Positions 5,172 through 41,626 of a stretch of 46,107 nucleotides of DNA are shown here, piece after piece. The stretch spans positions 1 to 46,107 of the forward strand of contig JACPDY010000013.1 in NCBI GenBank assembly GCA_016183775.1. The letters are read 5' to 3'. The notes under the pieces were generated by a model that was not told the origin of the DNA, ran no database searches, and saw nothing but the letters and a program-made list of their open reading frames with translations. Position 1 is the first letter of the stretch; every line of letters begins with the position of its first letter. Position numbers and translations under genes: made by a program. Origin of the DNA: Bacteroidota bacterium (GTDB taxonomy: Bacteria; Bacteroidota; Bacteroidia; JABDFU01).

Positions 5172-5570
5172 ATGATAAAACGAATCAACATCTCCTCGAA
5201 CGCGAAATGGGAAAACATTGTTGGTTATTCAAGAGCAGTACGCATTGGCAATATCATAGAGGTTGCCGGAACCACTGCAATTGACGGCGAAAAAATAATT
5301 GGCCCCGGCGATGCCTATTTACAAACCAAATACATTCTGCAAAGAATTGAAAAAGCACTCACCGATGCCGGAGCGCAATTAAGTGATGTGGTACGTACAC
5401 GTTTATATGTAACTGATATTTCGCAGTGGCAAAAAGTCGGCCAGGCACATGGCGAATTTTTCGGCGACATAAAGCCGGTTACAACAATGATTGAAGTAAG
5501 AGCGCTGATAGATCCCGGAATGCTCGTTGAGATAGAAGCAACAGCAATTTTAATTTCTTTTCCGGTTTGA
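5172..5570 (+). CDS. RidA/YjgF/UK114-family protein (probable enamine/imine deaminase)
   Basis: 132 residues, the normal RidA length. RidA proteins form trimers and hydrolyse reactive enamine or imine intermediates from PLP enzymes. Visible signatures are '[10 protein letters not shown]' (about 73-82), Arg110 in '[17 protein letters not shown]', equivalent to the substrate-carboxylate-binding Arg of E. coli RidA, and the following Glu residues near 120-122. The ATG lies 3 bp downstream of the LuxE-like stop, so it is the second gene of a two-gene operon. The link between acyl activation and RidA activity is not obvious. Confidence 0.9.
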
Positions 5571-5641
5571 GAATTACGGCCAACTCTTACGGCGCGTTTT
5601 GCAATACCGAAAGTACCGAAACCTACAGGCGCTCACCCTTC

Positions 5642-6385
5642 CTATTTGAATGTATATTTTCCGCTTTGATCGACAGTTATTGATGGCAAATTTTTTTTGT
5701 TCTCAAAAAAGACATATCCTTCCCTGAGATTAGTCCAGAAAGCCAGCATTTTTCCATCACCCGTTTTGGCTTTTAACCATGTAAATTGATCTTCGGTTAA
5801 ACGGGATGGAAATATATGAACTGGTATATTTTGCTGGCCGCCTCCGTGCGCTTCCACCGCCATTATATATACTTCCTTTATTTTGGCATCCGTTAATGGT
5901 ATACAACCAATTGTTACGCAATTTCCATGTATCATGATATCGCCGCCCGCGTTCGCATTACCTGCAATAATCTTATCAGATTTATTCGGATAGTTTATTC
6001 CCAGCGATAAATGATAGCTGCTTGTCGGGTTGAATACGCTGACCTGATAAAAACCCTCAGGGACCTGTCCGTCACCTTGCCGTCGCTTAGGACCTAATTC
6101 GCCCGATGAACTGCAAATAGCGTATGTTTCAACCAGTTTGTACCGTTCTTTTTTCGACCTGGCCCATACTTCCAATTCAGCCTCGCGTTTGAATGCCCTT
6201 ATAAATATCTCAAAACGGGAAGTATCAATGCCGGCCTTTACCAACTTGCCTTTTACTGTACTCCATTTTTCGCCATAAGCCGTTTTAACCCGGCTAAATT
6301 TCAATTGCTCAGTTTTAAACGAGTTGCCGGTATAAGATAAACAGACTAAACCCGTTACTGCAACTATGAAATATCTGCGAATCAT
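5642..6385 (-). CDS. YafK-like L,D-transpeptidase family (YkuD fold) protein
   Basis: A 247-residue exported protein with an N-terminal signal segment (about 1-22). The catalytic signature of the YkuD fold is present: 'DIMIHGNCVTIGCIPL' at about 149-164, with His153 and the nucleophile Cys161. The preceding 'GPKRRQGDGQVPEGFY' (about 98-113) is typical of the YafK branch, whose members act on peptidoglycan or on peptidoglycan-protein links. The last 70 residues are an extra alpha/beta tail. It is transcribed divergently from the FtsB/DivIC-like gene. Whether it makes or cuts cross-links cannot be told from sequence. Confidence 0.86.
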   Translation of the reverse strand: MIRRYFIVAVTGLVCLSYTGNSFKTEQLKFSRVKTAYGEKWSTVKGKLVKAGIDTSRFEIFIRAFKREAELEVWARSKKERYKLVETYAICSSSGELGPKRRQGDGQVPEGFYQVSVFNPTSSYHLSLGINYPNKSDKIIAGNANAGGDIMIHGNCVTIGCIPLTDAKIKEVYIMAVEAHGGGQQNIPVHIFPSRLTEDQFTWLKAKTGDGKMLAFWTNLREGYVFFENKKNLPSITVDQSGKYTFK

Positions 6386-36597: not shown

Positions 36598-37332
36598 ATG
36601 CAAACAACCAACAACACCATATTAATCACCGGAGGTTCCGCGGGGATCGGGTTGGGATTTGCGGAAGAATTTTTGAAGCTCAGAAATAAAATTATCATTT
36701 GCGGGCGCAGAGAAGACAGGCTTAACAAAGTAAAAGAGAAACACCCCGAAATTATTACCCGTAAATGTGATGTGTCTGTTGCACAACAGCGGGAGGAACT
36801 CTATTCCTGGATCAAAGAAAACCATTCTGATATAAATGTGTTAATAAACAATGCAGGAGTTCAGTTAAACACAGAAATTGCAGTGCCGCTGGATATGCAA
36901 AAGGTGAGCTTGGAGATCGACACAAATTTAATTGCACCGCTGCACTTAAGCTCATTATTTATTGAACTTTTAAAAACAAAAAACGAGTCCGCTATAATAA
37001 ACATTACCTCCGGCTTAGCCTTTGCTCCTCTCGCTTCCATACCCGTGTATTGTGCTACAAAAGCCTCATTACATTCTTTATCATTAACATTACGTCACCA
37101 GCTTAAAAAGACATCCATAAAAGTATTTGAAATTGCTCCTCCCGGCGTTGATACCGAACTTGGCCACGACAGAATATCTGATAAAACCCAAACACACAGT
37201 GGCATTACCGTTGCTGAGTTTTTAAAAGAAGCCATGCCTGCTATTGCTGGTGATATTTATGAATTTGCTGTGGGAAAAGCGAAAGGGTTGCGGATTAAGA
37301 GAGAGGATGTGTTTGATATAATGAATAAGTAG
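36598..37332 (+). CDS. Short-chain dehydrogenase/reductase (DltE-like)
   Basis: 244 residues with a Rossmann fold. Cofactor loop 'TGGSAGIGLG' (11-20), with 'CGRREDR' (35-41), whose Arg residues favour NADP; 'LINNAGVQ' (82-89); catalytic Ser138, Tyr151 and Lys155 ('NITSG', 'YCATK'). The C-terminal pattern 'APPGVDTEL' and the overall spacing recall the DltE/YvaG-type SDRs. The substrate cannot be deduced. It stands alone between a REP-like hairpin and the restriction cassette. Confidence 0.9.
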   Translation: MQTTNNTILITGGSAGIGLGFAEEFLKLRNKIIICGRREDRLNKVKEKHPEIITRKCDVSVAQQREELYSWIKENHSDINVLINNAGVQLNTEIAVPLDMQKVSLEIDTNLIAPLHLSSLFIELLKTKNESAIINITSGLAFAPLASIPVYCATKASLHSLSLTLRHQLKKTSIKVFEIAPPGVDTELGHDRISDKTQTHSGITVAEFLKEAMPAIAGDIYEFAVGKAKGLRIKREDVFDIMNK

Positions 37333-37641: not shown

Positions 37642-40596
37642 ATGACTAAAGAAGAAGCTAAAAATATAATCCAAAAACTTGTTGAACGGTTCCGCGAACA
37701 TCGGGAGGAATACCATTTGCCCGATTATAACGAAACAAAAACAAGGCGCGACTTCATTGATCCGTTTTTCAAGGCTTTAGGATGGGATATTGACAACGAA
37801 CAAGGATTTGCCGAAGCATACCGAGAAGTAATACACGAAGACAAAACAAGAGTTCACGGTAAACTGAAAGCTCCCGATTATGGTTTCCGTATGAACGGGA
37901 GTGATAAACGCCTTTTCTTTGTTGAAGCGAAAAAACCATCCGTTCCGTTAAAGGTTAATAAAGAATCAGCCTATCAGATCAGGCGGTACGGACGCAGTGC
38001 CTACACCCCCGTTTCAATACTAACAAATTTTGAAGAGTTTATCGTTTACGATTGCACTAAACGACCAAACTATAATGATAGTGCAAGCAACGCACGATTA
38101 AAACTCATTAATTTTGAGCAGTACGCTTCCGAGTTTGATTTTATTTACGACACATTTTCTCGTGAAGCCGTTGCCAAAGGCCGCTTCGATAAATTTGTTC
38201 AAAGCGATACACATAAAAAGGGAACACAAACGCTTGACAAAGATTTTGTTGCCAGCCTTGATGAATGGCGCATCTATTTAGCGAAGAGCATTGTTTCAAG
38301 CAACAAAAAAATTAACGAAGAAGAACTTAATTACGCTGTTCAACAAACAATTGATCGTTTAATATTCCTTCGCTTTTGCGAAGATCGTGCAGTTGAACAA
38401 TACGGTCAATTGCAAAAAGCAGTGCAAATAAAAGGAAATGCGTATAATCACCTGATCGACCTGTTCAAACAAGCGGATGATAAATACAATTCCGGACTCT
38501 TTGATTTCAAGAAAGACACCATAACGCCCGGACTTAAAATTCCTGATAAAGTATTTGAATATATTATCTCCGAACTTTACTATCCAAAATGCGAATATGA
38601 ATTTTCTGTAATGCCGGTTGAAATCCTTGGTAATGCTTACGAGCAATTCCTTGGTAAAGTAATACGCATTACACCAGGGCACAGTGCACGGATTGAGCAA
38701 AAGCCCGAAGTACGCAAAGCAGGTGGCGTATTTTATACCCCGCAATACATTGTTGAATATATTGTAAAAAATACAGTTGGTAAATTAATTGAAGGTAAAA
38801 CTCCCAAAGAAATTGAAAAAATAAAAATTGTTGATCCTGCCTGCGGCAGCGGTTCGTTTTTATTGGGAGCTTTTCATTATCTTTTAAACTATCATGCAAA
38901 TTGGTACATACAAAAAGGATACTTAGATAAAAAAGGGAACAACAATCCACTTTCACCAAGTGGGGTTCTTACCACTATTGAGAAAAAGAAAATACTACTC
39001 AATAATATTTTCGGTGTAGATATTGATGCCAATGCAGTAGAAGTAACTAAGCTTAGTTTATTACTTAAATGTATGGATGGTGAAACAGCTGCTTCTGTTA
39101 AACAGCAGTTAAGCGTTTTTCACGAACGCGTATTACCCGATTTGGATAATAATATTAAATGCGGAAATAGTTTAGTAGATTTTGATGATGAGTTAAATTT
39201 TGGTGAAGAGAAAAAACTTAAACCATTTAATTGGAAACAAGCATTTCCGGACGTATTCAAAAAAAGACCATCTGCTATTGATGCAACTAAACAAGAACTA
39301 AAAGAGCATTATAACAAAGTAAAAGACCAAGCTACTGCCTCAAATGATTTATTAGACAAGCTATCCGGAAAAGTTGAGGAACCAATCGTAGAATATGGTG
39401 ATGCAGGAGGTTTTGATGTTGTTATTGGCAACCCACCTTACGTAAGACAAGAGCTGCTCGCTGATTATAAAGAATATTTTGAAAAACATTATCGGGTTTT
39501 TCACGGAGCAGGTGATCTGTATACCTATTTTATTGAGAAAGGGAAATCTCTGTTAAGAGAAGATGGATACTTCGGAGTAATTGTTGCCAACAAATGGATG
39601 CGGGCAAACTATGGAGAACCATTAAGAAAATGGTTAAAGCAGATTGATATTACAGAAATTACGGATTTTGGCGACTTACCTGTTTTTCAGGGAGCCATCG
39701 CTTATCCTTGTATTTTAATATACAGAAACTCTTTCCCCAGCAAACATTTTAAGGTTGCGAATATTAAAACACTTCAGTTTTCAACTCTTGAAAAAATTGT
39801 TAACGAATCTCAAACTCTTGTACACCAAGACGGTCTTGATGATACAGGTTGGAATCTTTCTTCTGAAAACGAACAAAATCTAGCTTTTGTTATTGATTAT
39901 GAAACAAGAAAAAAACTCATCCAGGAAGATAAAAAATGTGTCGAAATAATTAAGCCTTTTTTAGCTGGAAGAGATATTAAAAGATATCAATTGCCTCAAA
40001 GCGACAAATTTTTAATTATTACAATTCGAGGGATGAATATAGCCAATTATCCATCCATAAAAAATCATTTACATCGGTTTAAAAAGAAATTGGAGGCAAG
40101 AGCTGGGAAACAAGCTTGGTATGAATTACAAGCAAGCCCAGACAATCTTATCAAGTTTGAATCACCAAAGATAATGTATCCGGATATTGCACTTAGAGCA
40201 CAGGCAATTTATGATAAAAAGGGATTTTTTTCAGTAAATACCGTTTATAATATTGGTATTGATGACAAATATTTGTTAGCTATCATTAACTCAAATTTAT
40301 TCCAGTATTATTTTTCAAGTATTACCAATAGTATTCAAGGAGGATATTTGAGGTTTTTCAGTCAATATGTTGAAACCGTACCAGTTCCAATTGTTTCAGA
40401 AAAAACAAAAACTGAAATTATAAAGTATGTGGATGCGCTATTAGCATCAAATGAGGAGCTAAAGGTATCAAAACTCCAAAGCAATGTTGAGCAACTAAAA
40501 CAGCACATTGCTCACAGCGAAGAAAAAATAAACCAATTGGTTTACGAATTATATAATTTAACGAAAGAAGAAATTAAAATAATAGAAGAAAAATAA
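37642..40596 (+). CDS. Single-chain type IIG-like restriction endonuclease-methyltransferase
   Basis: 984 residues joining nuclease, methylase and specificity parts. The N-terminal HsdR-like nuclease domain has Asp79 ('KAPDYGF') and Glu95-x-Lys97 ('FFVEAKK'), a PD-(D/E)xK site. A helical linker (about 210-360) follows. The adenine-methylase core has motif I 'DPACGSG' (398-404), 'FYTPQYIVEYIV' just before it and motif IV NPPY (597-600) in 'FDVVIGNPPYVRQE'. The C-terminal part resembles a TaqI-like specificity domain ('ITDFGDLPVFQGAIAYPCIL', 'KPFLAGRDIKRY') with a final coiled coil. It should methylate adenine and cut unmethylated foreign DNA. Two small genes follow 2 bp and then -4 bp apart. 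The region is more AT-rich than dnaB, which suggests horizontal gain. Confidence 0.92.
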   Translation: MTKEEAKNIIQKLVERFREHREEYHLPDYNETKTRRDFIDPFFKALGWDIDNEQGFAEAYREVIHEDKTRVHGKLKAPDYGFRMNGSDKRLFFVEAKKPSVPLKVNKESAYQIRRYGRSAYTPVSILTNFEEFIVYDCTKRPNYNDSASNARLKLINFEQYASEFDFIYDTFSREAVAKGRFDKFVQSDTHKKGTQTLDKDFVASLDEWRIYLAKSIVSSNKKINEEELNYAVQQTIDRLIFLRFCEDRAVEQYGQLQKAVQIKGNAYNHLIDLFKQADDKYNSGLFDFKKDTITPGLKIPDKVFEYIISELYYPKCEYEFSVMPVEILGNAYEQFLGKVIRITPGHSARIEQKPEVRKAGGVFYTPQYIVEYIVKNTVGKLIEGKTPKEIEKIKIVDPACGSGSFLLGAFHYLLNYHANWYIQKGYLDKKGNNNPLSPSGVLTTIEKKKILLNNIFGVDIDANAVEVTKLSLLLKCMDGETAASVKQQLSVFHERVLPDLDNNIKCGNSLVDFDDELNFGEEKKLKPFNWKQAFPDVFKKRPSAIDATKQELKEHYNKVKDQATASNDLLDKLSGKVEEPIVEYGDAGGFDVVIGNPPYVRQELLADYKEYFEKHYRVFHGAGDLYTYFIEKGKSLLREDGYFGVIVANKWMRANYGEPLRKWLKQIDITEITDFGDLPVFQGAIAYPCILIYRNSFPSKHFKVANIKTLQFSTLEKIVNESQTLVHQDGLDDTGWNLSSENEQNLAFVIDYETRKKLIQEDKKCVEIIKPFLAGRDIKRYQLPQSDKFLIITIRGMNIANYPSIKNHLHRFKKKLEARAGKQAWYELQASPDNLIKFESPKIMYPDIALRAQAIYDKKGFFSVNTVYNIGIDDKYLLAIINSNLFQYYFSSITNSIQGGYLRFFSQYVETVPVPIVSEKTKTEIIKYVDALLASNEELKVSKLQSNVEQLKQHIAHSEEKINQLVYELYNLTKEEIKIIEEK

Positions 40597-40598
40597 AA

Positions 40599-41237
40599 AT
40601 GGCTATTCACTTAGAAAAATTTGAATTACATAAAGAAGCAATGCATGAAACATTGATTGCAGTAGATGAGTTAATAAATTATTCAAAAACTGCGCACACT
40701 ACCGGATGGAATAATGACGATGAGGGTTGCCTTGGTTATCCTGCAGCTATTTTACTTTTTTCTTTTGTTAATGCCTTTGGGAATCTATTCTATGGAGAAG
40801 TAATTGACGGAGTTAAGGTTGATTGCGACAAAAAAACATTCGGAATTATTAAATTAAAATATTTTAATAATTCCGATATAGATTCTAAAGTACTTGAAGC
40901 TTTTTATGAAAGCTATCGCAGCAAATTAGTTCATAATTTAACTCTTCCAGCTGGGTATTATTTAAAGATTGGCAAAGACAATTCTGAATGGTATTCTTTA
41001 GCGAATAGTGATAAGGGTGAACCAATAATTAATACACTTTTTTTATTTCCATTTTTGACGTGTTGCAAAAATGCTTTTTTGAAATTGCAAACTGAGCACA
41101 AGGAAAAATTTACCCAATCAATTAAAATAATCGATATATCTTACAAAGATAACTCCTCCATACTATCTAACGATAATATTTCTATGGATAGTTCAGGAAC
41201 AACCCATTATCAAAATCCATTGAAGTTTAAGAGATGA
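40599..41237 (+). CDS. Small protein with HEPN-like R-x4-H motif, partner of the restriction enzyme
   Basis: 212 residues, no recognised family. The start is 2 bp after the restriction-enzyme stop, and its own stop overlaps the next start (ATGA), so translation is coupled. The N-terminal half looks helical ('MHETLIAVDELINYSK', 'AAILLFSFVNAFGNLFYG'). The central 'SYRSKLVHNLTLP' places Arg107 and His112 in an R-x4-H arrangement after a helix, the signature of HEPN nucleases, often followed by Asn as here. The C-terminal 40 residues are polar. HEPN proteins are RNases or nucleotide-binding partners in many defence systems; the assignment rests on this motif and context only. It could instead be an inactive HEPN-fold accessory protein. 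Confidence 0.7.
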   Translation: MAIHLEKFELHKEAMHETLIAVDELINYSKTAHTTGWNNDDEGCLGYPAAILLFSFVNAFGNLFYGEVIDGVKVDCDKKTFGIIKLKYFNNSDIDSKVLEAFYESYRSKLVHNLTLPAGYYLKIGKDNSEWYSLANSDKGEPIINTLFLFPFLTCCKNAFLKLQTEHKEKFTQSIKIIDISYKDNSSILSNDNISMDSSGTTHYQNPLKFKR

Positions 41238-41626
41238 CCCCCACAGAGTATAAAATACAACTTGCTACAGAAAACTTTGATAAGTGGGTAAAACTTTATG
41301 CTTCAGAATCAGCTGCAAAACTAAAAAAACGTTTACGCATCAACCATCAGCAATACTTACTTGCAGAAAAAGCAGGTAACGATAAAGCAGGAGAATTACT
41401 AAATATTATGGAACGCATAATAATTGAAGCCCGCACATATAAAGCAGAAAATAATATTCCAGACACATTATCCGAAATTGAATTAGCTATTGCCGATGTT
41501 GAAACTGTAACTGTTAAATCAGATGGGAGGCAGGAAATTTACACCGAAGGAACCAAATCAACCAAGCAATTGCGTGTTAAAAAGCAAACCCCTGCTGACG
41601 ATGACAGCCAGATGTCGTTATTTTAA
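41234..41626 (+). CDS. Small protein ending in a probable sliding-clamp-binding peptide
   Basis: 130 residues with no recognised family. It overlaps the HEPN-like gene by 4 bp (ATGA). The N-terminal 70 residues look like a helical bundle rich in Lys ('SAAKLKKRLRINHQQYLL'), followed by 'TLSEIELAIADVETVTV' and a charged, probably flexible tail. The last five residues are QMSLF (126-130), very close to the QL[S/D]LF beta-clamp-binding consensus that is often found at protein ends. This suggests docking on DnaN at replication forks or repair sites. The stop is 9 bp from the convergent gcvT stop. Real coding is supported by operon position and by codon use like its neighbours. Confidence 0.72.
   Translation: MTPTEYKIQLATENFDKWVKLYASESAAKLKKRLRINHQQYLLAEKAGNDKAGELLNIMERIIIEARTYKAENNIPDTLSEIELAIADVETVTVKSDGRQEIYTEGTKSTKQLRVKKQTPADDDSQMSLF

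Follow-up and report, generated by a model that had tools for sequence, protein, structure and literature searches.

A type IIG restriction-modification enzyme clade of Bacteroidota with a small fixed partner and a possible link to the sliding clamp

Type IIG and lone-strand (IIL, MmeI-like) restriction enzymes combine a nuclease, a gamma-type methylase and a recognition domain in a single chain, with no companion methylase encoded nearby. In a review of these systems, it was pointed out that lone-strand IIG enzymes relying on one-strand modification would see no difference between invading DNA and host DNA that has just been replicated, and paired sites have been proposed as a way out of this self-protection problem (PMC3874165). 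A connection between methylation and replication has been described for M.BceJIII and M.EcoGIX, plasmid-borne orphan methylases with single-strand action, the methylation of which is tied to DNA replication, with the sliding clamp suggested by the authors as a possible intermediary (PMC7736820). Clamp binding in bacteria commonly occurs through the short motif QL[S/D]LF, or more generally QxxLF (PMC12309361), and in transposases this motif is often C-terminal (PMC4549789).

The locus described here lies within a window of 46,107 nt, meaning the whole stretch of DNA that was analysed (contig JACPDY010000013.1, assembly GCA_016183775.1, from a Bacteroidota bacterium). It resembles the type IIG and lone-strand enzymes in having all three activities on a single chain, and no second methylase gene was found among the neighbouring genes, but it differs from them in having a dedicated downstream partner with a predicted clamp motif. 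This motif is of the same Q-L-x-L-F kind as in clamp-binding transposases (PMC4549789) and polymerases (PMC12309361), where it is likewise often C-terminal and in unstructured sequence, except that in those proteins it is part of the enzyme itself, whereas here it would be carried by a second, small protein that accompanies a restriction enzyme. The replication-linked methylation of M.BceJIII and M.EcoGIX provides a precedent for the role proposed below, with the difference that, as far as the accessible text of that report goes, no clamp-motif adaptor gene is described for them (PMC7736820). Among the titles and abstracts listed, a literature search found no restriction enzyme with a clamp-binding partner, and a narrower search gave no paper that combines restriction-modification with a clamp-binding motif.

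Three genes on the plus strand make up the cassette, and their frames and spacings agree with the original prediction of three coupled genes. Gene 1 (37642-40596, 984 aa) is followed after 2 bp by gene 2 (40599-41237, 212 aa), which overlaps gene 3 (41234-41626, 130 aa) by the 4 bp ATGA. The cassette had also been described as more AT-rich than the flanking dnaB and gcvT, and the GC contents of the enzyme (35.1%), gene 2 (30.5%, the lowest of the three) and gene 3 (36.6%) are indeed below those of dnaB (45.4%) and gcvT (39.8%), although gene 3 is barely more AT-rich than gcvT, and the immediate upstream neighbour is not dnaB but an SDR gene (36598-37332, 40.1% GC) that lies between dnaB and the cassette. 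Only gene 1 matches a PADLOC model, and the trio, which had not been recognised originally either, does not match any one described system there. No family was matched above cut-off by gene 2 or gene 3 in Pfam, NCBIfam or PADLOC.

By its domains, gene 1 encodes a type IIG restriction-modification enzyme on a single chain, as originally predicted, with an HSDR_N nuclease (residues 29-143, 4e-9), a gamma-type N6-adenine methylase (Eco57I, 454-682, 3e-45) and a TaqI_C specificity domain (771-915, 1.5e-18), and with a match to the type IIG model of PADLOC (7.7e-198). The catalytic motifs are intact, both in the N-terminal nuclease domain with its PD-(D/E)xK residues (PD...EAK, 78-97) and in the methylase, which has motif I (DPACGSG, 398-404) and NPPY (597-600). 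Across the family, the nuclease, the central methylase part and the C-terminal tail share about 72-76% identity, while the recognition domain varies (median identity 24.8%); one conserved adaptor could therefore serve many specificities. Gene 3 was also considered as a specificity subunit, which is unlikely given that recognition domains vary widely and gene 3 is conserved.

An alignment with 27 distinct relatives showed that 29 aa are missing from the start of the recognition domain in the window enzyme only, and according to a DNA comparison its closest relative, from the same genus (L014), retains them. Because these residues are absent, the window enzyme may have an altered specificity, or this copy may be inactive. 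The same genome carries a second pair of IIG enzyme and gene 3 (C56 paralogue, locus L007, G000 contig 56; 6783-9741, minus strand), in which the enzyme is interrupted by two in-frame TAG codons while gene 3 is intact and ends in QLSLF. The deletion and the in-frame stops could be read as signs of a decaying locus, in which the window enzyme has lost its activity and the two small genes are what is left over. This is improbable: all three window frames are open, the catalytic motifs are intact and gene 3 is constrained, and decay would in any case bear on one copy, not on the whole family. An HEPN-like ORF (RDDIVH) follows the C56 pair at 5567-6379. A third IIG gene of this genome (L060/L008, G000 contig 37) starts about 260 bp after a truncated dinB, and the enzyme runs off the contig.

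The relationship between gene 3 and the enzyme was examined by scanning the class with the enzyme alone (295 genomes), which gave 23 enzyme copies, and by then reading the downstream DNA for gene 3. It was found downstream of ten of these copies. Nine of the ten form one clade without exceptions and the tenth (L100) is an outlying, long-branched sequence; the other 13 have no proper gene 3 adjacent, with only a weak, motif-less relative beside one of them (L088, G421 C34), and the sister enzyme clade does without gene 3. When the presence of gene 3 is mapped on an enzyme-core tree, one change (one gain or loss) is required; this tree also takes in loci that were found through gene 3, and is biased to that extent, while the count of 10 versus 13 is free of that bias. 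The one-clade pattern corresponds in effect to a single evolutionary event, and thus indicates a stable partnership rather than repeated independent association, L100 excepted. Altogether, enzyme and gene 3 occur together in 15 loci, a recurrence which, with the purifying selection on gene 3 described below, goes beyond chance. By this distribution gene 3 is a fixed partner of the enzyme clade, and the fixed unit is enzyme plus gene 3.

Gene 3 is not an obligate subunit of the enzyme, because three copies lie away from it. When the class was scanned with gene 3, 15 full-length copies were recovered, ten of them beside the enzyme, two at contig ends (L123, L126) and three elsewhere (L015, L125, L127). 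Beyond the class, a search of 395 genomes of the phylum with an early two-sequence profile gave no gene 3, and none was found in plasmids, phages or viral contigs. In one locus (L027) gene 3 comes after genes for a C5 methylase and an AAA_21 ATPase, and in another (L125) after an SLFN-g3 helicase that also has GIY-YIG and S24-like domains, contexts which suggest that it is used by other systems too. In two genomes (L015, L025) gene 3 adjoins the same enoyl-CoA hydratase gene, in opposite relative orientation.

The product of gene 3 showed no meaningful match among PHROGs, and nothing significant was found in the PDB, either by sequence or by fold. In an AF2 model, the helices are confident as far as about residue 70 and another helix runs to residue 96, giving a helical domain (3-96); a tail (97-130) of low confidence and no secondary structure follows. 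The predicted clamp motif, QMSLF (41609-41623), forms the C-terminal pentapeptide; in the model it would sit in an accessible, disordered region, with a geometry that suits a docking peptide. Estimates of dN/dS place gene 3 under purifying selection (about 0.09 to 0.23 in three of the four pairs compared, with dS saturated in the fourth).

A motif of the QxxLF type is conserved across the gene 3 orthologues. A relaxed form of the pattern is present in all 18 full-length members and in one of 264 other ORFs, and conservation reaches 0.91 over the last five columns, compared with 0.50 in the preceding linker. Besides the QMSLF of the window, the tails end in QLSLF, QLTLF, QMSLF or QLSFF, and in L100 in QMNLF plus three residues; exact QxxLF fits most members, two ending in QLSFF, and three members found later end in QLGLF, QFDLF and QTSLF. 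One copy (G005 C77) has a frameshift just ahead of the motif, and four partial or divergent relatives (L088, L124, L128, L129) are without it. The single match among the 264 background ORFs is a 291-aa protein that ends in the clamp-like NQIDLFN and is encoded two genes downstream of a IIG gene (L056, 5549-6424, plus strand). A comparison with the clamp motif of the host DinB had no C-terminus to draw upon, as the sole IMS-domain gene found in the genome, the dinB of contig 37, is truncated at about 155 aa.

We propose, with a probability of roughly 45%, that gene 3 of this type IIG locus encodes a clamp adaptor, tethering the enzyme in such a way that methylation of new host DNA precedes any cutting, and that gene 2 is accessory. 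The helical domain of gene 3 would bind the conserved core or the C-terminal helix of the enzyme, and its flexible tail would allow the terminal QMSLF to dock on DnaN, in the hydrophobic cleft of this sliding clamp, as the motif implies. Clamps stay behind on newly replicated host DNA, and so the enzyme would be kept at fresh unmodified sites, held where these arise and methylating them before cutting. Such a tether would matter because an asymmetric site is modified on one strand only by an enzyme of this kind that works alone as a single chain, so that one of the daughter duplexes carries no modification. The replication-fork tether put forward for gene 3 in the original prediction has gained support, as the best reading of a fixed partner with a C-terminal predicted clamp motif, and gene 3 homologues do sit mostly beside the same enzyme family, the point which that prediction had proposed to check.

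The same motif and the same linkage to the enzyme could equally mean that the tether directs cutting, bringing the enzyme to forks at which phage DNA is being copied and would be cut during its replication, and the occurrence of gene 3 next to other defence-like genes (the helicase with GIY-YIG domain, and the C5 methylase with its ATPase) is in keeping with this. We regard it as unlikely, given that host forks, too, would then have the nuclease brought to them, although unmodified sites form there in every generation, and that many lytic phages use a clamp of their own. The small partners found near restriction genes are in many cases controllers, and gene 3, which is small, helical and coupled to the operon, might similarly be a regulator or antidote that restrains the nuclease or its expression, the terminal motif then serving something other than the clamp. 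Such a role seems no more probable than the directing of cutting; within a fast-evolving tail no part is better conserved than the motif, which fits the clamp consensus, gene 3 also occurs without the enzyme, and it matched no DNA-binding family in Pfam or NCBIfam.

If the clamp-adaptor reading is correct, and the tail does act as a hook, this could account for the way in which such enzymes spare the freshly copied DNA of the cell. A clamp-bound partner would be an alternative to paired sites, and one that is directly testable. Somewhat more tentative is the broader idea that a clade of IIG enzymes has acquired a dedicated sliding-clamp adaptor coupling self-methylation to the fork, which would be a so far undescribed answer to the self-protection problem if these enzymes modify one strand only. 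It would link restriction-modification to the replisome, and provides a concrete hypothesis for an unnamed Bacteroidota family.

The position between enzyme and gene 3 is variable. In seven of the 15 loci with both genes the slot is empty or the two overlap (C56, G005 C77, L020, L022, L029, L086, L100). According to Pfam matches, the occupant elsewhere is a DUF559 protein (L025, L082), a Bro-N protein (L021), or a PDDEXK_3 protein together with an AbiU2-like HEPN protein and Trypco2 (L026); by reading the sequence, a further DUF559 protein (L083) and an IS200-like transposase (L087) were recognized; and in one locus (L019) it is an unknown protein of 215 aa. The gene 2 family itself is present in one of the 15, that of the window. 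A fixed trio was rejected on this count, and by the same distribution gene 2 is an accessory passenger, one of several unrelated and interchangeable occupants of the slot. The variable slot shows how restriction operons gather interchangeable genes.

Both small genes had originally been taken as parts of one system with the enzyme, and for gene 2 this was not supported: its only two clear relatives (G427 and G542, 34% identity) lie away from IIG genes, the outcome that the original prediction had named as counting against it. No gene 2 was found in plasmids or viral contigs. The three homologues, though distant, share an R-x4-H-N signature, with R107, H112 and N113 of the window protein (R107-x4-H112-N113) invariant in a three-way alignment, and so conserve the R-x4-6-H pattern expected of HEPN proteins. 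No HEPN model was matched in Pfam or PADLOC, and a single-sequence structure model (pLDDT 36.7) was too poor for a fold search. Gene 2 is therefore similar to HEPN RNases of the AbiU2 kind in its signature and in its setting, AbiU2-like genes being found in the same slot (L026) and directly upstream of gene 3 (L126), but differs from them in matching no HEPN family model. Going by the signature, it is probably an HEPN RNase, adding an abortive second layer of defence or merely riding in the operon, and to this extent the suggestion of an RNase-type back-up toxin has some support, though not as a fixed part of the system. A stronger version, in which all three genes are one defence system and the RNase is released as a toxin when the enzyme is inhibited, would fit the tight coupling (+2 bp and a 4-bp overlap), the HEPN signature and the AbiU2-like genes upstream of gene 3, yet it is very improbable, since the gene 2 family is present in one of the 15 loci, that of the window, the slot is elsewhere often empty or filled by unrelated genes, and the relatives of gene 2 are elsewhere.

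Other genes are found directly downstream of some sister-clade IIG enzymes. In one such locus without gene 3 (L095), the enzyme is followed after 2-3 bp by the start of a TIR-domain protein, and in two others the stop codon of the enzyme is overlapped by 4 bp by a small protein, of 92 aa in L085 and 76 aa in L093; the latter two are alike by eye and possibly represent a different partner family.
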